Source of the DNA: Fusobacterium varium
Lineage (GTDB): Bacteria > Fusobacteriota > Fusobacteriia > Fusobacteriales > Fusobacteriaceae
Length of the DNA stretch: 64,000 nucleotides
Direction of reading: 5' to 3'
Assembly: GCA_002356455.1 (NCBI GenBank)
Contig: AP017968.1
Location: forward strand, 1,736,001 to 1,800,000
Position numbers and translations under genes: made by a program. Below the pieces are notes generated by a model that was not told the origin of the DNA, made no database searches, and worked only from the letters and a program-made list of their open reading frames with translations. Every line of letters begins with the position of its first letter. Positions within the stretch are counted from its first letter, which is position 1. Positions 966 to 23,200 of this stretch are shown piece after piece.

Positions 966-1844
966 ATGAATTTATCAACAGAAAAAAATGAAAAAATAAC
1001 AGATGCAATTAAAGTAAGAGGCATATACAGGGAAGGATATGGATTTATAGCAAAAAAAATAATGAAAGACAGAAATCTTAATATTATATCTAAAGCTATT
1101 TATGCCTATATATGCAGTTATGCGGGGAAAGGACATAATGCTTTTCCATCACAAAAATTGATATCAATAGATTTAGGAATAAATAAAGGAACATTGGTAA
1201 AATATATTAAAGAGCTGAAAGACAGCGGCTATATAACAGTAATACAGCACAAAGAAAAGGGAAAGTTTTCTAAAAATCTATATACTGTGAATATACTTCC
1301 GCAGGTGGTTTCACCGTATAGGGCGGGAACCGATACGGAAGCTGTCAGACATGGTCAAAGGGACACTAATAATAACAATATAAATAATAACATAAAGATA
1401 AATAATAACAGTGTAAATAATAATACACATACAGAGGAGCAGGAGGAAGTTATTGAGAAAATAGAATATAAAAAAGAAAAAATAGAAAATGCACCTGTGG
1501 AAATACAGCAGATAATAAAAAAATACATAGATTTAGAACTGCCGAATTTTGACTATAGACCAGATAACTATATTTTACTGGGAGTGTATAGGGAATTAGG
1601 AGCTGTAAAACTATTTGAAGCATTGACACTGATGTCTCAATCTGAATTTGTAAAAAATAATATGAGCATAAATACAATCTTTAAAATAGAAAATCTTAAA
1701 AAAGCTCTTAATGGCAGTTTTAAAAATAAAGTAAAAGATATTAAAAAAGAATTTAAAAAACCAGAATATGAAGATTTTACAGAGGAACTTATAGATGAAA
1801 TATTATCTGCAGAAACAGGAGGTTTAGAAAGTGAAAAAATGTAA
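966..1844 (+). CDS. phage-type replication initiator with N-terminal HTH
   Basis: Probable DNA-binding replication organiser of a phage or plasmid-like element. Residues about 25-110 form a winged-helix HTH of the kind found in phage replication proteins (HTH_36 type): SKAIYAYICSYA, then FPSQKLISIDLGINKGTLVKYI, then a wing before the SKNLYTV strand. A low-complexity Asn-rich linker follows (about 135-160). The helical C-terminus ends in an FKIENLKKAL-type segment resembling DnaB_2/DnaD-type tails. The gene overlaps the helicase-loader gene by 14 nt, the usual initiator-loader pairing in phage genomes. The start has GGAG 6-9 nt upstream and a good promoter. The HTH assignment is firm; the exact replication role is inferred from the pairing. 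Confidence 0.8.
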   Translation: MNLSTEKNEKITDAIKVRGIYREGYGFIAKKIMKDRNLNIISKAIYAYICSYAGKGHNAFPSQKLISIDLGINKGTLVKYIKELKDSGYITVIQHKEKGKFSKNLYTVNILPQVVSPYRAGTDTEAVRHGQRDTNNNNINNNIKINNNSVNNNTHTEEQEEVIEKIEYKKEKIENAPVEIQQIIKKYIDLELPNFDYRPDNYILLGVYRELGAVKLFEALTLMSQSEFVKNNMSINTIFKIENLKKALNGSFKNKVKDIKKEFKKPEYEDFTEELIDEILSAETGGLESEKM

Positions 1845-2637
1845 ATACTGCGGAAAAAGATATAAAGAAAACTCAATTGAACACATAGAGAAACTTCCTG
1901 ACTTTATAAAAGAAAAAATAAAATTTATCCCAGACTGCAGCTGTTTAGAAGAAATGTTTAAAAGAGAGATGGAAAAATTGGAAAAGGAAAGAGTATATGA
2001 GTGCATGAAAAACAGAGTAAAAAAATATAAAGATATTTCTGTTGTAGATAATAAATTTCTGGAAAGCAGATTTGAAAATGCTGATATGAGTGAAAAATAT
2101 ATGATTCTGGCAAAAAGATATGCAGATAATTTTCTTGTTAAAAATAAAAAAACAGGAATGCTGCTGTATGGAGATGTGGGAACTGGAAAAACTTTTGCAA
2201 GTGCATGTATAGGCAATTATCTGATGGAGAAAGGAAAAACTGTTATGATGATAAATCTGGGACTATATCTTAATAAATTAAGCAGAGAATTTGGAGAAGC
2301 TGAAAAAGATATTCTTGAACAGATAGAAAAGTGTGATCTGGTAATCATAGATGATTTTGGAACTGAAAAAAATTTAGATGACAATTCGACAGGCTGGAGA
2401 GCAGAAAAAATATATAATCTCATAGATACAAGATACAGAAGTGGAAAACCCTTGATTATATCTACAAATTTAATTTTTAATGATGATGAGGAGAAATGTG
2501 AAATAACAGAAAAATTTTCAATACAGGGTAAAAATAGAATCAGAGATAGAATAATTGATATGTGTTTTCCTGTGAGAGTGACAGGAAAAAGCAGGAGAGG
2601 AATAACTAAGGATAAATTTTTAGAATTTATGGCATAA
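1831..2637 (+). CDS. DnaC/IstB-like helicase-loader ATPase
   Basis: AAA+ ATPase of the DnaC/DnaI family, expected to load the replicative helicase at an origin bound by the upstream HTH protein. Visible are a Cys-rich N-terminus (CKYCGKRY, then PDCSC at about 35-39) like the zinc knuckle of some phage DnaC proteins, Walker A GDVGTGKT near residue 113, Walker B LVIIDDFG near residue 170, and a sensor-type IISTNL near 210. The length of 268 aa is normal for the family. It starts with GTG 8 nt after AGGAGG, inside the end of the initiator gene, so the two are probably translationally coupled. IstB of IS21 elements is the alternative, but no IS21 transposase is present. Confidence 0.88.
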   Translation: MKKCKYCGKRYKENSIEHIEKLPDFIKEKIKFIPDCSCLEEMFKREMEKLEKERVYECMKNRVKKYKDISVVDNKFLESRFENADMSEKYMILAKRYADNFLVKNKKTGMLLYGDVGTGKTFASACIGNYLMEKGKTVMMINLGLYLNKLSREFGEAEKDILEQIEKCDLVIIDDFGTEKNLDDNSTGWRAEKIYNLIDTRYRSGKPLIISTNLIFNDDEEKCEITEKFSIQGKNRIRDRIIDMCFPVRVTGKSRRGITKDKFLEFMA

Positions 2638-2664
2638 AAATTAATAATAAATCTGGGAGGAAAA

Positions 2665-2706
2665 ATGAAAAAGAAAGTACAGACAGGAGGAAATGTTGAT
2701 GGATAG
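2665..2706 (+). CDS. possible 13-aa leader peptide overlapping the HTH gene start
   Basis: ATG after GGGAGG encodes MKKKVQTGGNVDG. Its stop lies just inside the start of the next gene, and its own gly-gly codons supply that gene's AGGAGG. This arrangement suggests translational coupling, but such a short ORF could be chance. Confidence 0.3.
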   Translation: MKKKVQTGGNVDG

Positions 2707-2938
2707 AGAAGAGTATATTTACAGAAAACTCGAGGGGCTTTCATCTCTGAATAAAGCTCTTTCACAGGAAATGGTGGCATCTCTTGGAGAATGGGCAACA
2801 ATTGAGGAAGTGGCAAAATACTTAAAAAGACATAAAAATACCATCTATGACAAAGTGGATGGTGGAGATCTTCTCTACAGAAGAATAGGACCGAGTATTC
2901 TAATATATACCAGAAGTATAATTTTTCTGCTGGAATAA
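2699..2938 (+). CDS. excisionase-like HTH DNA-binding protein
   Basis: Small MerR/excisionase-type (HTH_17) DNA-binding protein of 79 aa. The core ATIEEVAKYLKRHKNTIYDKVDGGDLLYRR matches the helix-turn-helix and first wing of this family. Such proteins act as excisionases (Xis) or small regulators in mobile elements. I place the start at the second ATG: it lies 8 nt from AGGAGG, whereas the upstream ATG at 2693 is only 2 nt away. It follows the helicase loader in the same direction, as in phage early regions. No integrase is in the window, so a role in excision is only suggestive. Confidence 0.7.
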   Translation: MDREEYIYRKLEGLSSLNKALSQEMVASLGEWATIEEVAKYLKRHKNTIYDKVDGGDLLYRRIGPSILIYTRSIIFLLE

Positions 2939-3045
2939 TTTTGAACTTTCACAATCCATCACAAATCATAACATTGAATCACTGTTTAATCCTGTCTGAA
3001 AATAGTATCATGTATGTATGACAAAAATAAAACAGGAGGAACAAA

Positions 3046-3363
3046 ATGGCAGCAGGAGAAAATCAGGTAATTTTAACAGTGGTACAAAAAGAAATTGTAA
3101 AGGTGGAAAATGCTATCAAGAGAGAGAAAGCTATATTGAAAAATATAGATGATATCACAGCAACTCTTGAGCATATAGCAGAACAGGTGGAGGCAGGAAC
3201 AGCATTTCCGGAAAATTCAGCATATGAATCATACCAAGAGTGGCAGACAAGCGCTGAAAAAGAAATCAAGTCTTATAATACTTCATTGGAAACAATAGAC
3301 AAGTACAGAAGTCTGCTGGGAGCATATGAATTTTATGTAAAAAATAATACACCAGAAGCTTAA
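3046..3363 (+). CDS. hypothetical helical protein, 105 aa
   Basis: Not a family I recognise. The protein is almost entirely predicted helix, with heptad-like spacing (VVQKEIVKVENAIKREKAIL, later SAEKEIKSYNTSLETIDKY). It has no signal peptide or membrane segment. It has a strong AGGAGG and its own terminator immediately downstream. In position it sits between the excisionase-like gene and the small membrane proteins, so it may belong to the same mobile-element remnant. Confidence 0.7.
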   Translation: MAAGENQVILTVVQKEIVKVENAIKREKAILKNIDDITATLEHIAEQVEAGTAFPENSAYESYQEWQTSAEKEIKSYNTSLETIDKYRSLLGAYEFYVKNNTPEA

Positions 3364-3373
3364 TCAGGGAAAA

Positions 3374-3403
3374 GGCTGTGGCAGAAGCTGCAGTCTTTTT
3401 TTT
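3374..3403 (+). terminator. Rho-independent terminator
   Basis: The 9-bp stem GGCTGTGGC / GCTGCAGTC (with G-T pairs) and AGAA loop are followed by eight T. It closes the 105-aa gene. Confidence 0.85.
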
Positions 3404-3433
3404 ACCCAAAAATAAAAAAATGGAGGAACACTT

Positions 3434-3613
3434 ATGAAAATAATAATAAATTTTTTAAAATACTTTATAAGCAAATGGTTGGGAACAAAAGCTATAGAGA
3501 AGGTTTTGATAGTAGTTCTAAAAGAATTAGTGAAAAGAACAGAAAGTAAAATAGATGACAGAATATATGAGGCAGTATTTGGAAAACTGGAGGGAGAGAA
3601 AAATGAAAAGTAA
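3434..3613 (+). CDS. small protein, 59 aa
   Basis: The ATG lies 5 nt after GGAGGAAC-type ribosome-binding sequence and encodes a peptide with an amphipathic or membrane-associated N-terminus (MKIIINFLKYFISKWLG), then a short hydrophobic stretch (VLIVVLKELV) and a charged tail. The last 11 nt overlap the start of the next gene, which suggests coupled translation. Pairs of tiny overlapping proteins with membrane segments are typical of phage holin/lysis or tail-end regions, but I cannot assign it to a family. Confidence 0.6.
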   Translation: MKIIINFLKYFISKWLGTKAIEKVLIVVLKELVKRTESKIDDRIYEAVFGKLEGEKNEK

Positions 3614-3848
3614 TACAGAACTGTTTTTCAAGATAATGACTACAACAGGAACTTTTTTATTGGCATATCACAAGTATATACTTTCACTGTTTGATAAAAA
3701 ACTGGACATGAGAGATTGTGAAAAAGAAAGACTGTATGCAGAAAAATTCAGAATAGAAAATATAAAAACACTAACTGATGGAATAAAAAGAATAGAAGAG
3801 AGAATGACAAGAATAGAAAAAGAATTGATGAAACAATACAAGAATTAA
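3603..3848 (+). CDS. holin-like small membrane protein with coiled-coil tail
   Basis: 81 aa. Residues about 8-28 (FKIMTTTGTFLLAYHKYIL) form one possible membrane segment. The C-terminal half is a charged helix with heptad character (RIENIKTLTDGIKRIEERMTRIEKEL). That topology resembles XhlA/holin-associated proteins of phages. I chose the ATG after GGAGGGAGAG; an upstream in-frame ATG exists at 3555 but lacks a ribosome-binding site and would lie inside the previous gene. Function is inferred only from shape and context. Confidence 0.55.
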   Translation: MKSNTELFFKIMTTTGTFLLAYHKYILSLFDKKLDMRDCEKERLYAEKFRIENIKTLTDGIKRIEERMTRIEKELMKQYKN

Positions 3849-3891: not shown

Positions 3892-3917
3892 GTTCTCTTA
3901 TATGTATAAAGGCGAAC
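3892..3917 (+). repeat. inverted repeat, left arm of segment 1
   Basis: Begins GTTCTCTT and ends GCGAAC. With its flanks it is itself an imperfect dyad (AAAAGTTC at one end, GAACTTTT at the other), as expected for a site bound by two recombinase protomers. Confidence 0.85.
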
Positions 3918-3940: not shown

Positions 3941-3969
3941 ATTATAATCTCTAAAATTGATAAAGTCAA
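3941..3969 (-). promoter_or_regulatory. consensus sigma70 promoter inside invertible segment 1
   Basis: On the minus strand TTGACT is separated by exactly 17 nt from TATAAT. It points away from the autotransporter, toward the small membrane protein genes, and would currently give only antisense RNA. Confidence 0.85.
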
Positions 3970-4042: not shown

Positions 4043-4068
4043 GTTCGCTTTTATACATTAAAGAGAAC
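4043..4068 (-). repeat. inverted repeat, right arm of segment 1
   Basis: Reverse complement of the left arm with 3 mismatches. It begins GTTCGC and ends AGAGAAC on the plus strand. Confidence 0.85.
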
Positions 4069-4155: not shown

Positions 4156-7100
4156 ATGATTAAAGAAATGGAGAAAGCTTTAAAAAGATATCTAAAGGGA
4201 AAGAATAGAATAACAATGGGAGTGGTAGTAGCTTTTTTACTGGGAAGCAGTTTTGCATTTGGAGATGTTACAGTAAAATATGAAGATTCAACTATTAAAA
4301 TACTAGATAATTCAGGAACTATTACAGAAATTGGAACAGTAACAAAAAATTCTGATGATGAATTTACCTGGACATTACCAGAAGGAACAAATATAACTGA
4401 AACTGTAAAAATAGATGATACAGTAAATACAAATAATATTAAAGTAAATATAGTGAATAGTGGAACTATAAGTGGGAGCAGTACTGGTGGAGATAAATCA
4501 GGAAATGGAATTTATTCTTATGGAGCTAGTACTATAGGAAATATAACAAATGGTGGAACTATCAATGGTAGTACTACTGGTAGTGGAACTAATTCAGGAA
4601 ATGGAATTTACTCTGATGGTACTTCAAACGGTACAATAGGAAATATAACAAATAGTGGAACTATAAGTGGTAGTACTACTGGTAGTGGAAGTCATTCAGG
4701 AAATGGAATATATTCTTATTCTATGAATGGAGCTAGTACAAGTACAATAGGAAATATAACAAATAGTGGAAGTATAAGTGGCAGTACTACTGGTAGTGGA
4801 AGTTATTCAGGAAATGGAATTTATTCTTCAAGTTTTTCAAACAGTAAAATAGAAAATATAACAAATAGTGGAACTATAAGTGGAAACAGTACTGGTGGAA
4901 ATGATTCAGGAAATGGAATATTTTCTTATTCTTATTCTGCTACTTCAAGTAATATAATAGGAAATATAACAAATAGTGGAACTATAAGTGGAAATGGTAC
5001 TGGTGGAAATGAATCAGGAAATGGAATATATTCTTATTCTGGGAAAGAAGCTAGTACAATAGGAAATATAACAAATAGTGGAACTATCAATGGTAGTACT
5101 ACTGGTAGTGGAGCTAATTCAGGAAATGGAATATATTCTTATTCTTCTTCTAATGGAGCTAGTACAATAGGGGATATAACAAATAGTGGAATTATAACTG
5201 GTAGTACTACTAGTAGTGGACATTATTCAGGAAATGGAATTTATTCTTATTCTGAACCATGTAGTACAATAGGGAATATAACAAATAGTGGAACTATAAG
5301 CGGAAAGAATGGTGATGGATATTATTCAGGAAATGGAATATATTCTTCAAGTTCTCCAAATAATAGTTCAGATTCTTCAAGTAGTACAATAGGGAATATA
5401 GTGAATAGTGGAACTATAAGTGGTAGTAGTACTAGTAGTGGAAATATTCCTGGTAGTGGAGTTGAATCAGGAAATGGAATATTTTCTTATTCTAGTACTC
5501 ATGCTATTCTCTCAGAGAGCAAAATAGGAAATATAACGAATTATGGGACAATTAGTGGAAATAATACTGGAAGTGGAACTAATTCAGGAAATGGAATTTA
5601 TTCTTTTTCTTCTAATGGTCCAGCAATAATAGAATCAATTTCAAATTATGGTGTTATAATGGGAAGTCAAAATGGAATATATATTAGAGGAGATTCTAGT
5701 TCAAAGATTAATGGATATAGCAATTATGGACTTGTAATAGGACAGACACCAGTTTTGGTTGAAAAAAATTGGTCAGGACCTAATACTTTCAGTGTTCCTG
5801 AAGGGAAGGGAATGGCTATAACTCTTGAGAGTGATGGAAGTATAAAAACTAATGGTATTACCTCAGGAAATGGAGATAGCACGGGAATATATTCTATAAT
5901 AAATACAACTTCACAAAATGGTGGAGTGGATGCATACAATGAATATACAAATGGTGAAAATATTTTAGATTCTATTATCAATGGAGCTGGTGTAAGTAGT
6001 GGAACAGTAACAATAAATGCAGGTAATTTTTCACTTACTAATGGAATTATTAATGCCTATAAAACTGCTGTTACAGTTAAAGATGGAGCTTCATTTACTG
6101 GTACAGATGTAACAATCAATGGTGGTGGCTTAGATAGAACTACTCCTGTTATTTCTGGAGATTCAGGAGCTAATACAGTGAATATATCTGGAAATTCTTT
6201 TATCAATGGAAAAGTTGATTTAGGAGATGGAGATGATATTTTATTTATTGGAAATTCTACTCAAATCAATGGAGATATAGACGGTGGAACAGGTAATGGG
6301 GATATTCTTAATTTTGGTTCAGCCGTTTCCAGAGCAGTGGGAAATGATAATATAAATCTTTTCCATAAAATATCAAATGTGGAAGAAATAAATATAAATC
6401 AGAAAGTAACTGCATTTGAAACTTCTGAAATTACAGGAGCAGGCAATATTAATATTGGTAAAAATGGGGAGTTTGTATTAAGAATAGATACAAGCAAAGT
6501 GGACAACACAAGTGGGACAGATAAAATTACAGGTCATGCACTTTATGGGAATATAGGAACAATATCTTCAACAGGAGGAAAATTATTACTTGCTCTTAAT
6601 GGAGTAGGGAATGAAAGTATAATAAGTTTTGGAAATACTCAATTGGATAGCAGTTTGGTGACAGGAGATGAAGGAAAATATCAGGAAGATATAACTTTAG
6701 ATACAACATCACTGCTTCACTCAGTAGGAAAAATAGATTTATCAAACAATGAAATAAAAATTACAGCTAAATTTGATCTTCCTACAAAACCAATTAATCC
6801 AGATAATATAACATATGAAAAATTAAATAAAATATATCATGGTATTCTTTCGGTAGATAAATTAGAAAACTTTAATGTAGATACTGATGAAAAATTCTCA
6901 TCTTTCATAGGATATTTAAATGATATCTATGCAGGAAATCCATACTCATATTCTTCTGAATTATCAAGAAAATCAATGGAAATGTTCAGAGATATAGTTA
7001 CTGAAAATTCATTTAAAGCAGATACAGGAAAATGGATGATATATGGCGGACTTACTCATATAGATGGAGGAACTAAAGATACATATTATGGAAAAGGATA

Positions 7101-7926
7101 CTATACTTATGATATAGGAAGTTCTGATATAGATTCTGATACAAAAATCACAGGAGCATATATGCTTGGAGAGTATGGAGTATCTGATGACTTTAAAGCT
7201 GGAGTAGCAGTTGGAGGAAACAAGCTTAAATCTGATTTGTCTAATGACTCAAAAGTTGATGGAGATGCGCTGTATATTGGAGGATATGCTAAGAAGTATC
7301 TTGGAAATCTAAAAGTAACAGCAGGAGCAGGATTTCAATATGGAGATTATGATGCAGACAGAACAGCAGCAGGAAGAGAAATTACAGAAACAAGAAGCTA
7401 TTCTTCAAGCTACAATGATTTGACTTATGATATTTATCTGAATGGAAGATATTCATATAATATTGGAGAGAACTTATTCCTAGAACCTTATGCAACTCTA
7501 TCATATACATATGTAGATCAGGATGGAGCAGATGAGGGAAATAAAACTTTAGCAATAGAAACAGATTCAAAATCATTTGATTATACATCAGCTAAAGTGG
7601 GATTAGACCTAAAAAAAGTGATACCACATGAAAAAGGAAAGAGTACATTATCAGTTGGGGCAAGCTATACAAGACTGCTTAATGGCGCAGATGAAGAACA
7701 CATCACAGGAAGATTTAAAGGTGGAAGTGACTTTGATATATTAGTTGCCCACAAGAATGAACATAGCTTAGGACTGAATGCTAAATATACACTTGAACTG
7801 GAAAATGGAATCTTATTTGATGTAAAGGGAAGCTATGCAGTAGAAAGAGATTCACACAATAACTCAGGTAAAAACAAGACAAAAGGTGAATGGATAGTAG
7901 GAACAGGACTGGGTTATAAATTCTAA
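4156..7926 (+). CDS. type Va autotransporter with tandem-repeat passenger, 1256 aa
   Basis: Surface protein expected to be exported by Sec and to insert its own C-terminal beta-barrel in the outer membrane. The signal peptide (1-36) has the extended basic form KALKRYLKGK followed by a hydrophobic core ending FAFG. Residues about 95-500 are around ten tandem units of the type IGNITNSGTISG...SGNGIYSYS, a Ser/Thr/Gly/Asn-rich beta-helix-like passenger. A second, non-repetitive passenger part follows. The barrel occupies roughly 955-1256 and ends in the aromatic GLGYKF. The start has a GGGGGAGAGG site. The only strong promoter upstream points the wrong way (invertible segment), so expression may be phase-variable. 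Two HU-like genes follow after a terminator. The ligand is unknown. Confidence 0.93.
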   Translation: MIKEMEKALKRYLKGKNRITMGVVVAFLLGSSFAFGDVTVKYEDSTIKILDNSGTITEIGTVTKNSDDEFTWTLPEGTNITETVKIDDTVNTNNIKVNIVNSGTISGSSTGGDKSGNGIYSYGASTIGNITNGGTINGSTTGSGTNSGNGIYSDGTSNGTIGNITNSGTISGSTTGSGSHSGNGIYSYSMNGASTSTIGNITNSGSISGSTTGSGSYSGNGIYSSSFSNSKIENITNSGTISGNSTGGNDSGNGIFSYSYSATSSNIIGNITNSGTISGNGTGGNESGNGIYSYSGKEASTIGNITNSGTINGSTTGSGANSGNGIYSYSSSNGASTIGDITNSGIITGSTTSSGHYSGNGIYSYSEPCSTIGNITNSGTISGKNGDGYYSGNGIYSSSSPNNSSDSSSSTIGNIVNSGTISGSSTSSGNIPGSGVESGNGIFSYSSTHAILSESKIGNITNYGTISGNNTGSGTNSGNGIYSFSSNGPAIIESISNYGVIMGSQNGIYIRGDSSSKINGYSNYGLVIGQTPVLVEKNWSGPNTFSVPEGKGMAITLESDGSIKTNGITSGNGDSTGIYSIINTTSQNGGVDAYNEYTNGENILDSIINGAGVSSGTVTINAGNFSLTNGIINAYKTAVTVKDGASFTGTDVTINGGGLDRTTPVISGDSGANTVNISGNSFINGKVDLGDGDDILFIGNSTQINGDIDGGTGNGDILNFGSAVSRAVGNDNINLFHKISNVEEININQKVTAFETSEITGAGNINIGKNGEFVLRIDTSKVDNTSGTDKITGHALYGNIGTISSTGGKLLLALNGVGNESIISFGNTQLDSSLVTGDEGKYQEDITLDTTSLLHSVGKIDLSNNEIKITAKFDLPTKPINPDNITYEKLNKIYHGILSVDKLENFNVDTDEKFSSFIGYLNDIYAGNPYSYSSELSRKSMEMFRDIVTENSFKADTGKWMIYGGLTHIDGGTKDTYYGKGYYTYDIGSSDIDSDTKITGAYMLGEYGVSDDFKAGVAVGGNKLKSDLSNDSKVDGDALYIGGYAKKYLGNLKVTAGAGFQYGDYDADRTAAGREITETRSYSSSYNDLTYDIYLNGRYSYNIGENLFLEPYATLSYTYVDQDGADEGNKTLAIETDSKSFDYTSAKVGLDLKKVIPHEKGKSTLSVGASYTRLLNGADEEHITGRFKGGSDFDILVAHKNEHSLGLNAKYTLELENGILFDVKGSYAVERDSHNNSGKNKTKGEWIVGTGLGYKF
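4441..5650 (+). repeat. coding tandem repeats in autotransporter passenger
   Basis: Imperfect repeats of about 85-120 bp, each containing a variant of ATAGGAAATATAACAAATAG and of GGAAATGGAATTTATTCT. All keep the reading frame. Copy number could vary between strains by slippage or recombination. Confidence 0.85.
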
Positions 7927-8002: not shown

Positions 8003-8296
8003 ATGACAGAAGGGGAATTTATAAGATTCTATAAAAAGAGAAATGGACTAAAGAATCAGCAGGAAGTAAAAGAAAAGATAGACTTATTCTGGAATACATT
8101 GCTAAAAGTTCTGAATGAAGGTGAAAAGGTAACCTTTAAAAATTGGGGAACATTTGAAGAAAAAGAGGTAAAACCAAGAAAAATAATGATAGCCAGAATA
8201 AATAAAACTGGTTATACAAAAGCTAAAAAGAAGATAAGATTCAGGGTAGGAACAGGCTTGCAGGATATAGTAAATGGAGCTGGTACTAATGAATAA
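8003..8296 (+). CDS. HU/IHF-like DNA-binding protein (first of pair)
   Basis: 97 aa with the HU fold signature: helical N-terminus (GEFIRFYKKRNGLKNQQEVKEKIDLFWNTLLKVLNEGEKV), then the core KNWGTFEEKEVKPRK, matching the GFGTFEVRERAARKG core of HU, then the DNA-clasping beta arm and the closing strand KIRFRVGTGL. The Asn-Pro of the arm tip that HU and IHF insert into DNA is absent here (arm reads ARINKTGYTKAK). The next gene overlaps by 8 nt and does keep it, so the two may form a heterodimer as IHF alpha/beta do. The same pair recurs after the second autotransporter. The ribosome-binding site is AGGGGG. Confidence 0.85.
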   Translation: MTEGEFIRFYKKRNGLKNQQEVKEKIDLFWNTLLKVLNEGEKVTFKNWGTFEEKEVKPRKIMIARINKTGYTKAKKKIRFRVGTGLQDIVNGAGTNE

Positions 8297-8558
8297 GAGA
8301 GAATTAGCAAAAGTATACAGTGAAGTGAGTAAAGGAGAAATATCAGCAAGAAAAGCGCTGAAAGAAATAGAAGTATTTCTTGAAACAATGCAGGAGGCTT
8401 TGCAGAAAAGTCATTCATTAATATTTATAAATATAGGAATATTTGAAGTGAAGGAAAGAAAACCAAGAGTAATAGCCAATCCAGTAACTAAAGAACCTAT
8501 GAAGATTTATCCAAGAAAGACTGTGAAGTTTAGAGTATCTAAAAAAATAGAGAGATAA
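8289..8558 (+). CDS. HU/IHF-like DNA-binding protein (second of pair)
   Basis: 89 aa. The C-terminal half is a clear HU match: FINIGIFEVKERKPRVIANP, followed by the strand KIYPRKTVKFRV. The arm-tip Asn-Pro (IANP) is intact. I start it at the ATG overlapping the previous stop by 8 nt, with GGAG 9 nt upstream. An in-frame start 15 nt further upstream is possible, but the equivalent second pair has the same 8-nt overlap, which supports this choice. Overlap implies coupled, near 1:1 synthesis with the first protein. A role in local DNA architecture, perhaps at the invertible promoters, is inferred. Confidence 0.85.
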   Translation: MNKRELAKVYSEVSKGEISARKALKEIEVFLETMQEALQKSHSLIFINIGIFEVKERKPRVIANPVTKEPMKIYPRKTVKFRVSKKIER

Positions 8559-8701: not shown

Positions 8702-8727
8702 GTACTTCTTTATATATAAAAGCGAAC
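8702..8727 (+). repeat. inverted repeat, left arm of segment 2
   Basis: Ends TATATAAAAGCGAAC, like the left arm of segment 1. Its outer end (GTACTTCTT) is the most diverged of the four arms. Confidence 0.75.
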
Positions 8728-8740
8728 TATATTTTTTTCT

Positions 8741-8769
8741 ATTATATTCTCTAAATTTTAAAAAGTCAA
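8741..8769 (-). promoter_or_regulatory. consensus sigma70 promoter inside invertible segment 2
   Basis: Minus strand TTGACT, 17-nt spacer, TATAAT. It reads toward the HU-like pair of module 1, antisense to it. Confidence 0.85.
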
Positions 8770-8842
8770 GATAAAATATATTTTAAAAATATAATATTGA
8801 AAAAATTAAGTATTAGAAATAGGGAATTTTCTCCCAATTAGT

Positions 8843-8868
8843 ATTCGCCTTTATATATATAAGAGAAC
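8843..8868 (-). repeat. inverted repeat, right arm of segment 2
   Basis: Reads ATTCGCC...AAGAGAAC on the plus strand. Its reverse complement differs from the left arm of segment 1 at only two positions. Confidence 0.8.
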
Positions 8869-8929: not shown

Positions 8930-11900
8930 ATGGTTGAAAAAATTTTGGGAAGAGCAAAGAGTAGCAATCAAAAAAGAGGTATTAATGTAGCAATTGGAGT
9001 GGTAATAGGGTGTTTTTTGATTGGGGGAATAGGATATTCACAAGAGGAAGTTATAAATAAAAAAACAGTGTATGATGAAGAAATAAAGTGGTTGTGGCCA
9101 TTTGAAAAAGGAAGCAGTAAAAAAAAATTAGAAGGAAATACAGGGGGAGAAGTATTGCCACCAGAGCCAGAAATTATTCCACCTAAAAAAGATGAAATAC
9201 CATGGCAGCATGATCCAGATGGAGTAATAGAAGATGGATTAGAACAGGATTCAACTGATATATATACAGGAATATTGAAAAGAGAATGGAATAAAGAAAA
9301 AGAAAAATGGGAAGTAGTTGGATTACAAGATGAGAATAAAGATGGAATAGCAGATATATATGATCCAGATGGAGATTTTGATGGAGATGGAATAAAAAAT
9401 AAAGATGATAAAAATTGGGCATTAAATGCTGGAAAACAAAATGATCTTTTTATATCAAGTAATGGATTAGGATATGTAGATTCTGGAAGTATAGTGAGAG
9501 TATTAAAAGAAAATGATTGGAATGCAGATAAAATAAAAAATTATTTATACAGTAAAGGACAGCTGGATTTATATAAAAATGGAATAAAAAATTTAGAAGA
9601 TACAGATATAAAAACTATTACTAAACTTAATAAGTATAATGAAAAATATAACAAAGAAAATAAAATAATTAACTCAAATGATGGTACTGGAGAGTTTGAA
9701 AATAAATTAAAAGAAATAGAGCAGAATAAGCTGGATGAATATAATAATTTTACTGGAGGAACAAATAATTTACTATATAATGATATCGCAACTGAAATCA
9801 CAGGACAAAATATAAGAGAAAAGGATAATATACAAGTTGTAAATAAAGGAAAGATTAATTTTACAAGAGTTAATCCAGGGCAATTAGGAGCCAAATCGAA
9901 TAGTTTTAAAGCATATAATTATGGTGAAATAATAGGAAGAATAGATTTAAATGGCAGCGGAGAACCTGTAAGCAATGATTCAATAGGCCAAAAAGGTATG
10001 GCAGAAAGTAATCATTTATATAATTATGGAGTAATAGATGTAGAAATAAAAATTGAAGGTGGATATATAGGAAGTGTAGGACAAAGAATAGATAATAATA
10101 TGTCATATTCTAAAAGTGTAGATAATGAAATTATAAATTATGGATATATTAAAAGTATTAATACAGGGGGAGGGGCAGCAGCAGGACAAGATGCATTGGC
10201 AACAGGTGGATTAAAAATAGAACTGATAAATTCTGGAAAAATATATGCAGAAGTAAATGGAGCTAAATCAGGAAATAATGGACCTGAAATAGTTGGACAA
10301 AGAATACATGGTTCTAATACACAATCTAGTTTTTTAGATATAAATGCAGATATTTATAACTATAATGACATTAAACTAGTGTTAAAACAAGGAGATGATG
10401 GAATCAATCAAGCTCATTATTTATATGGTCAAAAGGCTACTATAGCCTTAGTTCCTCCATCAACTGAAACTGCCTATTTGAATAGTCAGTTATATAATTA
10501 TGGTAATATAAAAATAGAGGACTTAGATGGAAAATTAGGAGAAACTGGATTCTTATATGGACAATATGCAGAAACTTTAAATCAAGGAACAGATGCTGAA
10601 AATAAAACTGCTCAAAATAATGTTTATAATTATGGAAATATAGATATTATCTCTAAAGGAACAACAACTTCGTATGGTCAAAGAGCTGCAATAAAATATA
10701 ATTCGATAAATATCAGAGAAAACCAACTATATAATTATGGGAAAATTAATATTTCTTCTGAGAATAAAAATTATGGACAATTTTTAACAACTTGGTCAAC
10801 TAAAGAATTTTTTAAATCAGATATATATAATTATGGAATAATAATTAGTGAGGGAAAGGGAACAATTGGACAATCAATAGAAGGATATAAAGGAACTGCA
10901 AATAATTATGGACAAATAAGAGTAAAAGGTGGAACAAAAGATACAGCAGGAATAAAAGTAATAGATGGTGCAATAGGGTTTAACTATGGAATGATAGAGG
11001 TAGATAACAAAGGAATTGCACCTGAAAATATGGGAACAGGAATGTGGGCTGATGGAAAAGATTCAGAAGCATTTAACTATGGAAGTATCATAGTTACTGG
11101 ATTGACAGGAACTGTTGAAAATGGAATGGATACAGCATATATGAGAGCTACTAATGGAGGAAAAGTATATAATTATGGGTGGCTTGAATTAAAAGACTCA
11201 CTAGATGCATTAACTATTGGAGAAGGAGTGAGTTCATCTACAAGAGCAGGCTATAGATCAGCAGGAGATTTTGACCTTAAAGGTGAAATGAAGATAATGG
11301 CAGAAACAGGAAAGGGAGATATCTATTCTAAAGAAAATTTCATTACAGCAGGAGGAAATGGAAAAGAAGGAAATATATCAGGACTTGAAAACCTTACATC
11401 TTCAGGAGTATATGAAATTTTTACAACAGAAAGAAAAGGGGATAATGGAGAAAATATAGTTGACCTTGTAATGAATAAAACTAAAAATATAGAGGATTTG
11501 GAAAAAGACAGTAATACAGGAAGAATGGTAAAAGAATTACAGCTTGATAATGCTGTATATGGAAAAGATTCAGAGTTTGCAAGGAATAATAAAGAGTTCT
11601 CAGAAATGATATCAAGAAAAGTATCAGAGGGAGAATCACTTGAAAATTTACTTGGACTTGAATATGCAAATTTAAATGGACAGATAATTGAATCAGGAAA
11701 GGTACTGTTAGAAAATCAGGAAAAAGTTATGAGTACAGACAGAACTTATCTAAGTGGGCAGTTTAATAAAGAAAATAATTTTGATGCAGTAGTAATCAAT
11801 CCTCAAAATGAAAGCAAAATAGGTATATTTCATTTAAATTCAGATAAAGACCTTGACTCTCAAGTTTCAGGAACATACAGATATGAATTGGAAAGTACAA

Positions 11901-12616
11901 CTCTTATACTTCAAAATAATAAAAACTATATGATTGGTATGAATTATTCAAAATTAGATTATAAAAACAGAAATAGTGATATGAAGAAAACAAGTGTATT
12001 TGCAGGTCACAATTATATAAAATCATTGAGTGATATATCAGAGTATAGAAATTATATAAATGGAACTCTGACATTTAATACTATGGATAGAAATGGAAAA
12101 AGAGATGATTTCAAATCATATGATTTAAATATGAGAAATGAATATGTAAGAGAATTAGATATAGAAGGACTCACATATTCAGAATTTACAGCAGGGGTTA
12201 AAACAACTGTATTTGGTCATGAAAAAATAAAAGAACATGGAGCAGACTTAACTTCAGACAGAAATATAGAAGTAAAGAAAAAAATAGGAATATCAAATGA
12301 AATTAACTTAGGTTTTCTTATGAATAAAAGCTATGAAATAGGAGAAAATAAAAGAAAAAATAATTTTGGTATAAGTACATACTTAGGATATAAAAAAGAA
12401 CTCATGCCAATAAATGACTGGAGAGATGAATTCACAATAGGAACAGGAAACTATGCTAAATATAATAAACCAGTAAAAGAACATGATTTAGGAGTAGGGT
12501 TGGGAGTAGTATCAGCAAGATATGAGATTAAAGATGAATTATCAGGAACATTAAGTTTTTCAGCAGATACTTTAGGTGATACAATGACAACATTTAAGAT
12601 AGAATATAAATTTTAA
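8930..12616 (+). CDS. type Va autotransporter with Asp-rich N-terminal segment, 1228 aa
   Basis: Outer-membrane surface protein. The signal peptide (1-38) has a long n-region (MVEKILGRAKSSNQKRG) and a hydrophobic core ending GIGYSQ. Residues about 70-100 are Pro-rich (LPPEPEIIPPKK). Residues about 132-160 (DENKDGIADIYDPDGDFDGD and onward) match the Asp-rich calcium-binding thrombospondin type 3 pattern. From about 300 to 750 the passenger repeats YNYG-I units, as in beta-helical adhesins. A helical linker precedes the barrel (about 935-1228), which ends FKIEYKF. AAAGGAG precedes the ATG. Seventeen bases after the stop comes an HU-like gene with no terminator between, so the three genes form one transcript, probably under the invertible promoter. 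Confidence 0.92.
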   Translation: MVEKILGRAKSSNQKRGINVAIGVVIGCFLIGGIGYSQEEVINKKTVYDEEIKWLWPFEKGSSKKKLEGNTGGEVLPPEPEIIPPKKDEIPWQHDPDGVIEDGLEQDSTDIYTGILKREWNKEKEKWEVVGLQDENKDGIADIYDPDGDFDGDGIKNKDDKNWALNAGKQNDLFISSNGLGYVDSGSIVRVLKENDWNADKIKNYLYSKGQLDLYKNGIKNLEDTDIKTITKLNKYNEKYNKENKIINSNDGTGEFENKLKEIEQNKLDEYNNFTGGTNNLLYNDIATEITGQNIREKDNIQVVNKGKINFTRVNPGQLGAKSNSFKAYNYGEIIGRIDLNGSGEPVSNDSIGQKGMAESNHLYNYGVIDVEIKIEGGYIGSVGQRIDNNMSYSKSVDNEIINYGYIKSINTGGGAAAGQDALATGGLKIELINSGKIYAEVNGAKSGNNGPEIVGQRIHGSNTQSSFLDINADIYNYNDIKLVLKQGDDGINQAHYLYGQKATIALVPPSTETAYLNSQLYNYGNIKIEDLDGKLGETGFLYGQYAETLNQGTDAENKTAQNNVYNYGNIDIISKGTTTSYGQRAAIKYNSINIRENQLYNYGKINISSENKNYGQFLTTWSTKEFFKSDIYNYGIIISEGKGTIGQSIEGYKGTANNYGQIRVKGGTKDTAGIKVIDGAIGFNYGMIEVDNKGIAPENMGTGMWADGKDSEAFNYGSIIVTGLTGTVENGMDTAYMRATNGGKVYNYGWLELKDSLDALTIGEGVSSSTRAGYRSAGDFDLKGEMKIMAETGKGDIYSKENFITAGGNGKEGNISGLENLTSSGVYEIFTTERKGDNGENIVDLVMNKTKNIEDLEKDSNTGRMVKELQLDNAVYGKDSEFARNNKEFSEMISRKVSEGESLENLLGLEYANLNGQIIESGKVLLENQEKVMSTDRTYLSGQFNKENNFDAVVINPQNESKIGIFHLNSDKDLDSQVSGTYRYELESTTLILQNNKNYMIGMNYSKLDYKNRNSDMKKTSVFAGHNYIKSLSDISEYRNYINGTLTFNTMDRNGKRDDFKSYDLNMRNEYVRELDIEGLTYSEFTAGVKTTVFGHEKIKEHGADLTSDRNIEVKKKIGISNEINLGFLMNKSYEIGENKRKNNFGISTYLGYKKELMPINDWRDEFTIGTGNYAKYNKPVKEHDLGVGLGVVSARYEIKDELSGTLSFSADTLGDTMTTFKIEYKF

Positions 12617-12633: not shown

Positions 12634-12921
12634 ATGAAGGAAAATGATTTTATAAAATTATATCGAAACAACAGAGGTTTAAAAAATCAAAAAGAAGCTA
12701 AAGAAAAAATAGATGCTTTTTGGAATACATTATTTAAAGCTGTAGAAACTGGTGAAAAGGTAATTTTTAAAGGATGGGGAAAATTTGAAAAAAAAGATAT
12801 GAAATCTAGAAAAATAAAAATTCCTAAAAAAGATCAGCTGATTTGTACACAGCCTAAAAGTATAATAAAGTTCAGGGCAGGAAAAGTTTTTAGAAAAAGG
12901 CTGGTAGGTGCATATGAATAA
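12634..12921 (+). CDS. HU/IHF-like DNA-binding protein (first of second pair)
   Basis: 95 aa, clearly paralogous to the first protein of the earlier pair (shared GLKNQ-EAKEKID-FWNTL and GEKV-FK-WG-FE). The HU core reads FKGWGKFEKKDMKSRK. As in its paralogue, the arm-tip Asn-Pro is missing (arm IPKKDQLICTQPKS). It is co-directional with the autotransporter 17 nt upstream and so is probably co-transcribed with it. The ribosome-binding site is AAGGCAGAG, weaker than usual here. Probably a nucleoid-type architectural protein; the target is unknown. Confidence 0.85.
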   Translation: MKENDFIKLYRNNRGLKNQKEAKEKIDAFWNTLFKAVETGEKVIFKGWGKFEKKDMKSRKIKIPKKDQLICTQPKSIIKFRAGKVFRKRLVGAYE

Positions 12922-13186
12922 AAAAGAATTTATAAAATTGTATAGAAGTGTTTATGGAGAAAATATAACTGTAAAAGAATCTTTAGAAGATATAGATATA
13001 TTTTTAAAAACAGTAGAACAGGTGCTAAAAGAGAATGGAAAAGTAAAATTTACAAAAAGAGGAGTATTTGAAGTAATAGATAGAAAGCCAAGAAATATAT
13101 CAAATCCTTCAACTAGAGAGATAATGACAATTTATCCCCAGAAAACAATAAGATTTAGAATAACTAAAAATATAGCAAAATACTAA
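12914..13186 (+). CDS. HU/IHF-like DNA-binding protein (second of second pair)
   Basis: 90 aa. HU core FTKRGVFEVIDRKPRNISNP, then IYPQKTIRFRI, with the arm-tip Asn-Pro present (ISNP). The ATG start overlaps the preceding gene by 8 nt, identical to the first pair. A GTG two codons earlier is a less likely start. The presence of one arm with and one without the proline in both pairs suggests an obligate heterodimer. A terminator follows about 70 nt downstream. Confidence 0.85.
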   Translation: MNKKEFIKLYRSVYGENITVKESLEDIDIFLKTVEQVLKENGKVKFTKRGVFEVIDRKPRNISNPSTREIMTIYPQKTIRFRITKNIAKY

Positions 13187-17227: not shown

Positions 17228-20200
17228 ATGAGAAAAAATGACATTGAAAAATCTCTAAAGAGATTTTTGAAGAGAAAAGTCAGTTATTCTCTTTCGCTTT
17301 TGATAGCCTTCATGATAACAGGAGGAATATCTTTAGGTGCAGGAATAACAGCAGAGGAAATACAGGAAACTAAAAGCGATCTTTTAACTAGAATTCAGAC
17401 AGAGCGCGAAGAAATAAGAAGAAAAATAGAAGAAAATGAAAGATTGATAAAAGAATACAACTCAGATTTTGTGGAACTTGTAAGGAAGGGAGATTTTTAT
17501 TCTAAACCTTTATTCAACAGTACACAGATATTTTTTACTTACCAGTATTTAGATAATGGGAAAATGAAAGACAGAACAGATAAAGAGTTTGCAGAAACAA
17601 TAGATGCGATAAATAAGCATTATGGAACAAAGAGCGGAAGAAGTCTGCTTAGATCTACAGGAAATATTGGAAAAGATAAGATAATGGCTGGAAATGGAGT
17701 AGCTGTTGATAATACAGTTTTTAGAGAAGAAATAAATCTGGGAGCAAATATAATACCAATAGAACCAGATTTACCGGTTGTTAATCCAGAAATTTCAATA
17801 AATATTTCTGAACCTACTGTTAATTTAGGAGTACTGCCAGGAACTGTAAGTATTTCTCCTATTACTATATCAACAATAACTCCACCAACAGTAATACCTC
17901 CATCAGCACCTGTTGGAATATCACTGACAGTATCAACACCAGATGCTGTAGATAAAATAGCAGTGACAACACCAGTGATAGTACCTCCAGCAACACCAAG
18001 TGATAAGCAGATAACAGTAACAGCACCAACAGCACCAGGAGGGTATGATCCAAGTTATATTTCAGTACCTGAAGCACCAAGCAGTCCTGTAATAAATTTA
18101 CCTAATATACCTTCAATAAATTTTGTTTCTATGTCTAATGGTAATGGAGCATATGTAGAAGTAGATGCAGTTCCAGGAGGAGCAGGAAGCAGTGCAAGAA
18201 TACAAAATGGAATAATTTCAGCAGTGTCTGTAATAGATGGAACTTTTATGGTGAAGAGAGAAATTCTTACTCCTTATGGAATAACAACAGCAGGGGGATC
18301 CTATGGATCAGCTACTACTACAGCTAATAACTCATATAGATACAGCTACAGTAATTATAAAGCCTATGCTTTTGCAACAGTAGGATCAATAGGAGTGGGA
18401 GCAGGATCAGCTGCTGGAAGTATAGTAAATGCTGGAACTGTAGGAGATAAATATGCTATTTCTTATGCTAATGCTTATGCTGATAGTGCATCAGTGCAGA
18501 GAATAGTTGCAGGACAAGCTCTTACTTTTAATAATGGAAAATTCAGGGTTGCCAGAGAAAGTGACTCTTCTTCTGTATATCTGGGAGAATTTCTTCATAT
18601 GGATATACATGGGTCAATAGCTCATACAACTGTAAGAACACATCTAGCTAATACTGTGGCAAAAATAGCATCGGATGGGGCTGGAGCTACAACAGCCACA
18701 GCAGCTGTATTGCCAGCATGGGATGATGTAATAGCAAACTATACAACAAATACACCAAGAGTAATAGCTTGGGTAAACAGTAATGATATAGCTTTGGAAG
18801 GTGGAAATCTAAGTCTGACAAATATGTATCATCATACAAGTGGTATAACAAGTGGAATTGTTATAAATACAGGAAAAATACAGATTAGACCATATAAAAA
18901 TGCAGGAACAATATATGATGGATATAACTCTGTCTTTGTAGTTTCTTCTGAACAACAGGCTAATAGAGCTCAATATGTTATGTATAATAAAGGAGAAATA
19001 AATACTTCTACACAAAACACAGGAGTATTTACTGTTAATAATGGTTGGTATAGAAGAGGTGGAGCAGTAACTTATTGTAATTCTTCAGATAATTTTGTAG
19101 TAAATAAAGGTGTCATTGAAATGACAGGAAAACATTCAATAGGCGTATATGGGCAGTTTTTATCATGGAATGTTACAGGGGCTAGTAGAGGTGTTCTGCA
19201 GATGGATTTTATGGATGGAGCAGATAGAAAGCCTATACAGCTATATGGTGATGAAAGTATTGGATTATATGTACTGCCAGAATTTAATGCATCTAACATT
19301 ACAGGAAACTTCCATGTAGATATTGGAGGAATAAATACAGGTAATAAAAGTATAAGTGTAACAGGAAGTGATACTAATGGTGGAGAAACAATAACTGACT
19401 ATTGGAGTGGGAATACTTCTACAAATACTGTCGATGGAAGTGTAGGTATTTTATCATATAGAGATATAAATCTTACTTCACATGGAATAGTTATACATGA
19501 TAAAACTACTGGGAATATTGGAGTAGCACCACAAAAAAAAGCTGCTTATACATGGTCATTTACTGGAGGAGGTCAAACAAGTAACTGGAATATAACTGCT
19601 GCTAATCCAAGTTTAAATCTGGGATCTGGATATATAAAAATAAATGGTGGAACGGATAATATTGGTATATTTGCAAGAGAAGGAAATGTTACAACTACAG
19701 GAAGTGTTGATCTTACTGATGGAACTGGAAACTTAGCTATCTATGCCAAAGATTATACTGCAGGAGTAGGAAAAGTTACAACTACAGGGAATACAGCAAA
19801 TACAGTTGTACTTTTTGCTGATAATGGAAATATAAATGTAACTGATAGTGTAAAATTATTAGGATTAAAATTAACAGGAGCAACAACTGGAAATCAAAAT
19901 AATATATTAGCGGCATATGCATCTAATAGCGGAACAATAACTATGAATAATTCTGGAACTATTGGAACTTTAAGTTCTCCTGATATAGAAGTAACAGGAA
20001 TGGAACTGGGAGATGCTTCTGGTCAATACAGAGGTCTTGCATTAATGGCTGATAATGGAGTTATCAATGGAAAAAATAATTATATTAAGGTAATAAATGG
20101 AGCAGCAGGGGTAGCTTCGATAAATTCTGGAAATATAGATATTACAGGATCAACTGTTTATGTAAATAATGGTTATGCAGTTTATTCAGATGGGACAGGA

Positions 20201-23200
20201 ACAGTTGATTTAACAAATGGAAAACTTGTATTAGATGGAAATTCTGTTGCTTTTGACTTGGACTTTAGCTTAACAAATCCGCTGACATTAACTGGATCAG
20301 AAATACATGTAGTTTCTGATGATGTTACTGCTGTAAATTTAAAAAATGTATCAGCAGCATTATCAGTTAACAGTTTAAAAAGCAGTATAATTGCTGCTCT
20401 AGGTGGAACTATAAATATAACTGATGATGGACATGATAAGTACAAGATAGCTGCAGTTGATGGCGGAACTTTGAATATTGATACTAATATAGACAAAGCT
20501 GATCCAGACCCAGATTCAAAAGGTTATTTTTATTATAAAAGATTTTTAGGACAAAGACTTAAATTAAATGTGACTAGCGGAGTAGAAGTAAATGCAGCAA
20601 TTGATACTTCTGATGCAAATTCATATTTTAAAGGGCAGGTAGTAGGACTTGAAATGAATTCCAGCTCATCAGCTTCTGGTGTAAGTGACACGCAGATTAA
20701 TCTGGCAAATAATTCTAAAGTAATAGCAGACAGGACAGACAATGGTGCTGGAGCTATTGGTTTATATATGAACTTTGGAGAAATTAAGCTTGATGCAGGT
20801 TCTAAAGTAGAAGTAGAAAAAGGGGCTAATATTGTAAATAATCAAGCAGTTGGAATATATGCTGTTAATGGAAGTAAAGTTAACAATGCTGGAACTATTG
20901 AAGTAGGAGGAGATCAATCTATAGGGATTTTAGGAATGGCATATAGAGAAGCTCCTATAGGAACTGTGATAGTAAAAGAATTTGGAGCTGGGCTTACTGA
21001 TCAGGGAAAAGTTAATATTATTAATGATAAAAATATAACACTTAATGGAGTAGGAACAATAGGTATTTATGCTCATAACAATAATACTTCTGCATCAAAT
21101 AATGATACTGTTGTAACAAATACTATTAATGGAGTAATAACAGTTGGTTCTTCAGATAGTTCAAATGCTGCTGTAGGTATTTATGGAAAAAAAGCTAGCA
21201 TTTCAAATCTTGGAAAAATATCTGTAGGAGATGGTGGAGTAGCAATTTATGCAACAGAAGGAAGTAGAATAACTGACCTTGGAATTCTTGATTTAGGAGC
21301 AGATGGAGTAGGAGTTATGGCTGATGGCACTTCAGATATAACAGCGACTTCAGTTACTCTTACTTCAAATAATACAGGAACTCTTGGAAAAACTGGTATT
21401 TTCTATAAGGGAACTTTAGGGACAGAAAGCAAAACTATAGGTGTAACTGTAAATGCTTCAGCTCTTGATAAAGGAACAGCTATATATATAGAAAATATGA
21501 ATATTACTTCTTCTGGAACTTTAAATGTAGGTAAGGATGGAGTAGGTATTTTTGTAAAAGGAAATTCAACTCAAACAGGAACAAATACAGGAACTATTGA
21601 TCTTACATCTGGAAAAACAGGTGCAGTAGGTATGTATACAAAAACTGCTAATATAGTTAATGATACAGCTGGAATTATTGAAGTAAGAGATTCTTCTCAG
21701 ATAGGTATGTATGCAGAGGGAATTAATAACAAAGCTGCAAATATGGGAGCGATTAAACTAAATGTAGATGGATCTACAGGTATCTATGTAAAATCTGGTG
21801 CAATAGCTGAACTTAATACTGGAAATAACATAGCATTTGCTGGGAAGTCAAGTGTTGGAGTTTTTGCAGAAAATGCAGCAGTAAACTTTAAAAATAATTT
21901 GACTTTTACAAATAATAATGAAAATAAAAATATTTATGTTTATGGTAAAGGTGCTGTTGTAGGAATAGATGCAGGTAAAATAATAACTGTAAATGGAGTA
22001 GCTGCTCCAATAACAACAGGAAATAAAACTGTTGGAATATATCTTGAAAATGCTGGTACTGCAAGCACATTTACAAGTAATACAACAGGACAACTTGTTG
22101 TTACAAATGAAGCAGTGGGTATTTATTCTAAAGGAAATAATACTTTAAATGTAAATGTAACAGCTGATGGAGTAAAAACAACAGGAGTATTTATAGATGG
22201 AGCTTCTAACATAACAGGAACAGTAACTGCCAGAGGAACAGCAGCAGCAGGTGCAGTAGGAGTATATGGAAGTGGAGGAGCTGTAACTATAGGTGCTGGA
22301 GGGCTTACTCTTAATACTGATACAGATAAAGGAACTGGAATGTACCTTGCTGATGGAGCCTATGCAGCAGGAGGAAAAATTACTGTAAACAATACAGCTG
22401 CTGTTGATAACATAGGAGTATATTACAGTAAGGGAACTGCTTCAGGAATTATAACAAATGAGGCTGAAATTGAACTTGCAGGGGTTAAAAGCATAGGAAT
22501 ATATGCAGCTGATGGAATAAATCTTGTTAATACTAAAAATATAAATTCAACTACTTCAAATAATATAGCTTCATATGTGGGAGGTAATTCAACACTTACC
22601 TCAAATGGAAATATAACTATGACTGGGACAGATAGCATAGGAATATATACTGGAAAAGGAACTGGAGTAAATGCTGGAACTATTAACTTAACTGGAGCAG
22701 CAGGAACATCATCAGCAGGAATGGTAGCTAAAACTGATGCTGCAGGAGATACAGCTGCTGTGGAAAATAAAAATATAATCACTGTAGGAAATAATCTTGG
22801 AATGTATATAGCAGGGGCAGGAACAAGTTCTGGAAAGAATAGTGGAACTATAACTGCAACAACAGGAACAGGAGTATATGTAGATGGTTCAGGAAATAGT
22901 TTTAATGGAACTGGAGGAACTATTACAGCAGATACAGTTGGAATTTATCTAAAAAATACAGACGCTAATAAAATAACTGCTGGAGCATTAAATATAGGTT
23001 CAGGAGGGGTTGGAGTATTTGGTGAAAATGCCAAAATAGATTTTGCAGTAAATGCTGCGGGAACAGGAGCAGTAGGAGTTGCAGCTAAAACTAATTCTAT
23101 AATCTCAGGAAATGTAACAACAGGACAGGATTCAGTTGGAGTATATCTTCTTGATGATACTGTTACTTTTAATGGAGCGAATATAACAACTGGAACAAAT

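Follow-up and report, generated by a model that had tools for sequence, protein, structure and literature searches.

The element at positions 8702 to 8868 of a 64,000-nucleotide stretch of Fusobacterium varium DNA (contig AP017968.1, positions 1,736,001 to 1,800,000; hereafter, the window) is very probably an invertible promoter (inverton) that is flipped by a tyrosine recombinase and belongs to a multi-locus promoter-inversion regulon. This element, referred to as switch 2, consists of two 26-bp arms in inverted orientation (20/26 identity, with the central TATATATAAA the same in both) that surround a promoter upstream of a gene encoding an autotransporter-like surface protein (Table 1). The promoter is directed left, away from this gene (OFF), and 13 bp separate its −10 element from the distal arm. 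The product of the target gene had no Pfam match at an E value of 0.001; since a match to the PF03797 beta-domain is absent, we name it autotransporter-like, an assignment based on its length, its signal-like start, and a C terminus ending in F. F. varium appears to carry a set of such segments, in which a promoter is flipped by a recombinase and individual surface-adhesin and surface-sugar genes are switched on and off randomly in each cell.

An initial annotation had described switch 2 as a second copy of the design found at switch 1, the related element that precedes it in the window, with similar arms, promoter, and downstream sequence. The kinship of the two interiors was borne out by an alignment score of 109 (maximum of 88.5 in 1000 shuffles; 81 of 126 columns identical), and the loci also share the promoter motif, the general layout, and the order of a target gene followed by a pair of IHF/HU-like genes. 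Both promoters are directed away from their genes, as had been noted. The claimed similarity downstream proved borderline (gene-side flanks, 72 versus a shuffle maximum of 71.5), and the likeness of design is limited by altered end bases in the switch 2 arms and by arm spacing, which is 141 bp at switch 2 (141- to 143-bp subtype) and of the 151- to 154-bp subtype at switch 1. The window contains nine arm-like matches versus 2.06 expected, a number reached in none of 100 shuffles.

Table 1. Features of the two switch loci in the window and candidate recombinase genes elsewhere in the genome (C1 coordinates)
Feature	Position	Strand	Description
Switch 2 gene-distal arm	8702-8727	+	GTACTTCTTTATATATAAAAGCGAAC; 10-bp half-site, hexamer ATATAT, 10-bp half-site
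Switch 2 gene-proximal arm	8843-8868	-	Reverse complement GTTCTCTTATATATATAAAGGCGAAT; hexamer ATATAT
Switch 2 promoter	8741-8769	-	TTGACT-N17-TATAAT; -35 at 8769-8764, -10 at 8746-8741, 17-bp spacer
Switch 2 invertible interior	8728-8842	none	115 bp; inversion between such arms seen at paralogous loci
Switch 2 target gene	8930-12616	+	1,228-aa autotransporter-like surface protein
IHF/HU-like gene after switch 2 target	12634-12921	+	Assigned from its resemblance to the PF00216 genes at 8003-8558
Second IHF/HU-like gene after switch 2 target	12908-13186	+	Second gene of the pair
Switch 1 distal arm	3892-3917	+	Hexamer ATGTAT
Switch 1 proximal arm	4043-4068	-	Hexamer ATGTAT
Switch 1 promoter	3941-3969	-	TTGACT-N17-TATAAT; directed away from gene (OFF)
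Switch 1 target autotransporter	4156-7926	+	PF03797, E 1.6e-30
Two overlapping IHF/HU-like genes after switch 1 target	8003-8558	+	PF00216
Type 1 recombinase	C1:1631168		198 aa
Type 2 recombinase	C1:3156432; identical copy C1:3237238		198 aa

Arm pairs and their central hexamers across the genome

A whole-genome search with the arm consensus (two mismatches at most, with the reversed pattern as a control) returned 41 forward and 33 reverse matches, compared with 3 and 4 for the control, whereas the exact two-arm pattern yielded 12 inverted pairs versus none. The F. varium genome thus scanned holds ∼27 pairs, i.e., 24 with an assigned target and three with one degenerate arm (L036, L052, and L055), in which the central hexamer is still common to both arms. 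The check suggested in the initial annotation is answered by these results: the consensus recurs in inverted pairs, nearly all of which surround a promoter, and the pairs precede surface genes. The widespread unpaired arms that it had named as contrary evidence were not encountered: each of the three weak sites is matched by an arm with an identical hexamer, and L042 is the sole orphan. Excision by arm-arm recombination could have left L042 as a scar, but its alignment with L055 favors decay over clean deletion. An additional weak pair, L045, lies outside the assigned set.

Within the genus, arms clearly exceeded the control in four genomes (this genome, G000, and its relatives G025, G026, and G027), which together contain at least 72 arm pairs; in the other eight, arms were at or near the control level, and the exact pair was found in none. 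A 71% complete draft (G024) gave 5/1 matches versus 0/2 for the control, all of them with two mismatches and without the AT-rich arm core. Scanning of wider genome and viral contig collections, from which near relatives of this genome may be missing, retrieved no arm pair, and switch-1-like DNA was not found on plasmids. Promoters scoring at least 10/12 were detected in 61 of 72 interiors, compared with 2% of shuffles. Most elements are ∼167 to 179 bp long, with the arms spaced by 141 to 154 bp.

The targets include 12 switch-borne autotransporter paralogues with a common N terminus, MIKE(M/I)EK(A/T)LKRYLKGKNRI, one of which is the switch 1 target, together with other autotransporter-like genes, IHF/HU-like gene pairs, surface-polysaccharide genes, and two OmpW-like genes; beyond the Pfam-tested ones, these assignments were made by reading the sequence. 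At L038, the switch precedes an IHF/HU-like pair and then a small-protein cluster, at the place where the G026 relatives have FadA-like genes. The OmpW-like genes (L053, at C1:3885766 and C1:3891462, and also L137 and L164) stand behind arm pairs spaced by 186 to 187 bp, and the interiors of these pairs show no clear sigma-70 promoter. Amid metabolic genes, a switch of the 142-bp subtype (L031, C1:268521) lies 340 bp upstream of a gene for a 449-aa membrane-anchored protein. In the window, arm pairs are absent before two very large autotransporter-like genes, at 17228-27517 (3,429 aa) and 47840-57802 (3,320 aa), and therefore not all surface genes are switched. The region upstream of switch 1 (966-3848) encodes an HTH_36 replication-like protein, an IstB/DnaC-like ATPase, and small proteins, and 2- to 3-kb matches to it lie ahead of further switches, both in this genome and in its relatives, which suggests that such blocks may be plasmid- or phage-derived carriers of switch loci.

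The arms follow a 10-6-10 layout, with outer tens that form imperfect inverted half-sites (GTTCnCnTT and AAnnnGAAC). The hexamer at positions 11 to 16 is the same on both arms in 52 of the 53 distinct pairs from the four genomes, whereas random re-pairing of arms gave a mean of 7.9 matches and a maximum of 19, and agreement as high as that of the hexamer was reached at none of the other 6-bp windows. This hexamer varies between loci, and the outer ten bases are less strictly matched within a pair. The arm is thus organized like the core site of a tyrosine recombinase whose exchange region is 6 bp long. Orthologues of the switch 2 gene in G025 and G027 (73% and 63% identity over the N-terminal region) both lie behind a switch, and the hexamers in the three species (ATATAT, ATGTAT, and ATCTAT) are each present on both arms. 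Recombination between the two arms would be expected to bring about such in-step change. At three of the close paralogues in this genome (switch 1, L041, and L044), arm-specific marker bases are swapped reciprocally between the arms, which fits repeated exchange, with mutation as an alternative source. Hexamers disagree between the arms in a single pair (ATCTAT and ATACAT; L124:8674 in G027), which is predicted to be unable to invert and would serve as a natural negative control. Switch 2 has the sole self-complementary hexamer among the 53 distinct pairs; directional control may be lost at a site of this kind, which could then permit deletion as well as inversion.

Opposite interiors at paralogous loci and candidate recombinases

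Comparison of paralogous loci with near-identical flanks revealed interiors in both orientations. In G025, L143 and L144 (a switch, one HU-like gene, and an autotransporter gene) are ∼87 to 90% identical outside the arms, and their interiors match at 88% with one of them inverted versus 61% in direct alignment. Both are unscored for promoter state, as the candidate promoter that they share, TTGATT-N17-TATATA, falls short of the strength needed for scoring; by this candidate, L143 would be ON and L144 OFF. In G026, the interiors of L163 and L170 (a switch, IHF-like genes, and a FadA-like cluster) are opposite between flanks of 95 to 97% identity, most evidently at the interior ends adjoining the arms. 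Also in G026, the L155 promoter is directed toward its autotransporter gene (ON), and L157 and other paralogues with the same promoter are OFF, as is L043 of G000, which has 3.2 kb of upstream flank in common with L155. Opposite interiors between near-identical flanks imply that inversion between the arms has occurred at these paralogous loci; at switch 2 itself, only the OFF orientation was seen.

Thirteen genes of the F. varium genome match PF00589, among which two types of 198-aa enzyme stand out (E values of 5e-21 and 1e-21). The catalytic residues R44, K68, H146, R149, H172, and Y181 are invariant in both types and conserved in their orthologues. Type 2 has orthologues of 80 to 90% identity in G025, G026, and G027, i.e., it occurs in all four site-bearing genomes, and is therefore the best candidate to act on the switches, as judged by correlation across four related genomes. 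Type 1 (96 to 97% identity in G025 and G026) is present in three of them; G027 has only broken type 1 fragments, besides its type 2 gene and a distant relative of 35% identity. Among 57 other genomes of the family, no relative of more than 57% identity was found, and no named relatives of the enzyme turned up in a scan made for them. Relatives on plasmids likewise reach 57% at most, the best of them, on a Fusobacterium polymorphum plasmid, without an adjoining arm-like repeat, and the surroundings of those in other genera show no obvious long inverted repeats. Six serine recombinase genes (PF00239) are also present in the genome; both the anatomy of the sites and the enzyme that co-occurs with them are of the tyrosine type. 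The 198-aa recombinases are similar in size to FimB and FimE (200 and 198 aa), with only 15 to 22% identity; a likeness to these enzymes is proposed for the mode of action, not as membership of their subgroup. Their best NCBIfam matches are Xer models, with scores far below the XerC/XerD cutoffs. The type 2 gene and its neighbors are duplicated ∼81 kb apart (L059, C1:3154959-3158483; L060, C1:3235765-3239289), the listed proteins of the two copies look identical, and the switch at C1:3160572 has one of these copies ∼4 kb upstream. The shared recombinase proposed in the initial annotation is supported by the co-occurrence of a recombinase family with the sites.

Alternative explanations and proposed mechanism

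Several observations weigh against promoter inversion at switch 2. Each of its arms carries a change at one otherwise conserved end base (GTTC/GAAC), neither recombinase gene adjoins it, the enzyme being assigned by co-occurrence, and it is OFF in all three species with an orthologue. ON and OFF states were read from the predicted promoter in the assembly, and no switch was seen in both states within one strain. Furthermore, switches before autotransporter-size targets are overwhelmingly OFF (40 OFF, 1 ON, and 3 unscored). As for the paralogous pairs, the L163 and L170 interiors are partly self-complementary (84% identity inverted versus 77% direct), and part of the L170 interior has diverged, including the promoter, which looks decayed. 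Fixed orientation had been named in the initial annotation as a sign of an operator or looping site: orientation is not fixed in the family, with 6 ON, 6 OFF, and 1 unscored before IHF-like targets. Since an assembly records the majority state, autotransporter switches are likely strongly OFF-biased in culture.

These counts are what would be expected if inversion belonged to the past and switch 2 and most autotransporter copies were now fixed in OFF by arm decay, by an OFF preference of the recombinase, or by selection, and the end bases lost from the switch 2 arms point the same way. We nevertheless consider such locking unlikely. The hexamers still match across the arms after having changed between species, which implies continuing exchange, and distant copies retain both promoter and arms. 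Moreover, a strong OFF bias in culture is known for invertons; for the Bacteroides fragilis IVp-I promoter, OFF predominates in culture and in the majority of faecal samples tested (PMC4747536). If the arms were instead operators, i.e., two palindromic sites on which a dimeric repressor or a nucleoid protein loops out the promoter without inverting it, the imperfect palindrome within each arm, the regular arm spacing, and the common orientation of nearly all autotransporter copies would all be accounted for. However, a pair of operators predicts neither the in-step change of the variable hexamer nor opposite interiors in near-identical paralogous operons, and the co-occurrence of a matching tyrosine recombinase family with the sites also speaks against this explanation, which we deem very improbable. 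The many copies per genome, with conserved ends and interior, could also recall small mobile elements akin to miniature inverted-repeat transposable elements that carry a promoter and insert either way round. This origin is hardly credible: the copies lie directly upstream of surface genes rather than scattered, a hexamer that agrees within each pair and varies from copy to copy does not fit transposon ends, and the gene-side and distal flanks are common to paralogous copies, so that whole loci, not the element alone, have been duplicated.

Promoter inversion would proceed as follows. A small tyrosine recombinase would bind both 10-bp half-sites of each arm, pair the arms, and swap strands over the common hexamer, thereby flipping the interior with its sigma-70-type promoter. 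In the resulting ON state, transcripts would begin close to the inner edge of the proximal arm and run through it to cover the surface gene and the IHF/HU-like pair behind it. On this view, switch 2 would still flip at present, and transcription would follow promoter orientation. One or two chromosomal recombinases would serve the ∼27 switches in trans, at autotransporter genes, IHF-like/FadA-like operons, surface-polysaccharide genes, and OmpW-like genes. IHF is required for fimS inversion in Escherichia coli, and therefore the IHF-like proteins of the switched operons could influence inversion; that they assist it is speculation. A more elaborate scheme combines one recombinase for all these promoters with the hexamer as an address that confines exchange to the arms of its own switch and limits inter-locus rearrangement, IHF/HU-like feedback on inversion, and a possible lack of directional control at the switch 2 hexamer. 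We advance this combination tentatively, as it is rather doubtful that all of its parts hold together.

F. varium Fv113-g1, a strain with published RNA-seq data, has unusually many autotransporter (44) and FadA (13) genes (PMC5720691). If many of these indeed stand behind independent switches, a culture would be a mixture of surface types, bulk expression or adhesion data obtained from a single colony would be unrepresentative of the species, and the reported clustering of type V secretion system (T5SS) and FadA genes would gain a regulatory reason. In addition, natural sites with matched hexamers offer a ready test of partner choice by tyrosine recombinases.

Comparison with known inversion systems

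At Xer/dif sites, two ∼11-bp inverted half-sites flank a 6-bp exchange region. The Fusobacterium arms resemble them in this organization, as does the recombinase in having Xer models as top NCBIfam matches, but they are paired inverted sites for promoter inversion, not for chromosome dimer resolution. The Clostridioides difficile flagellar switch is not known to carry the promoter itself. It is reported to work through Rho (PMC7446863). RecV in this species acts at a switch upstream of a surface/motility operon, and multiple genomic sequences are invertible (PMC7446863, PMC9286219), with targets different from those of the Fusobacterium switches. For Fusobacterium, the literature searched, which contained only a minority of subscription papers, yielded no account of promoter inversion.

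Inversion of promoters ahead of surface genes, an autotransporter gene among them (PMC6083910), is already known, as are multi-promoter regulons (PMC4747536). In uropathogenic E. coli, the invertible ipuS promoter precedes the UpaE autotransporter operon within a set of several switches (ipuS, fimS, and hyxS) and tyrosine recombinases (FimB, FimE, FimX, IpuA, and IpuB) (PMC6083910). The Fusobacterium system is alike in placing a promoter switch at an autotransporter gene and in its recombinase of ∼200 aa, the size of FimB/FimE. However, ipuS spans 260 bp, has 7-bp repeats, and adjoins recombinase genes, whereas the ∼27 switches of this F. varium genome have 26-bp arms of 10-6-10 layout and a mostly remote recombinase. 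The master-invertase regulons of B. fragilis (Mpi, Tsr0667, and Tsr19) rely on trans-acting enzymes that invert distant surface-gene promoters (PMC4747536). The analogy with Bacteroides drawn in the initial annotation holds for this architecture of one trans-acting enzyme and many distant promoters, with a strong OFF bias at some of them. Mpi is a serine recombinase, whereas the Fusobacterium sites and candidate enzyme are of the tyrosine type, like Tsr; furthermore, the Bacteroides promoter consensus differs, and the Fusobacterium targets are mainly autotransporters and FadA-like operons. The Fusobacterium system stands apart in how many switches it has, in a hexamer specific to each locus, and in the IHF-like genes linked to the switches.
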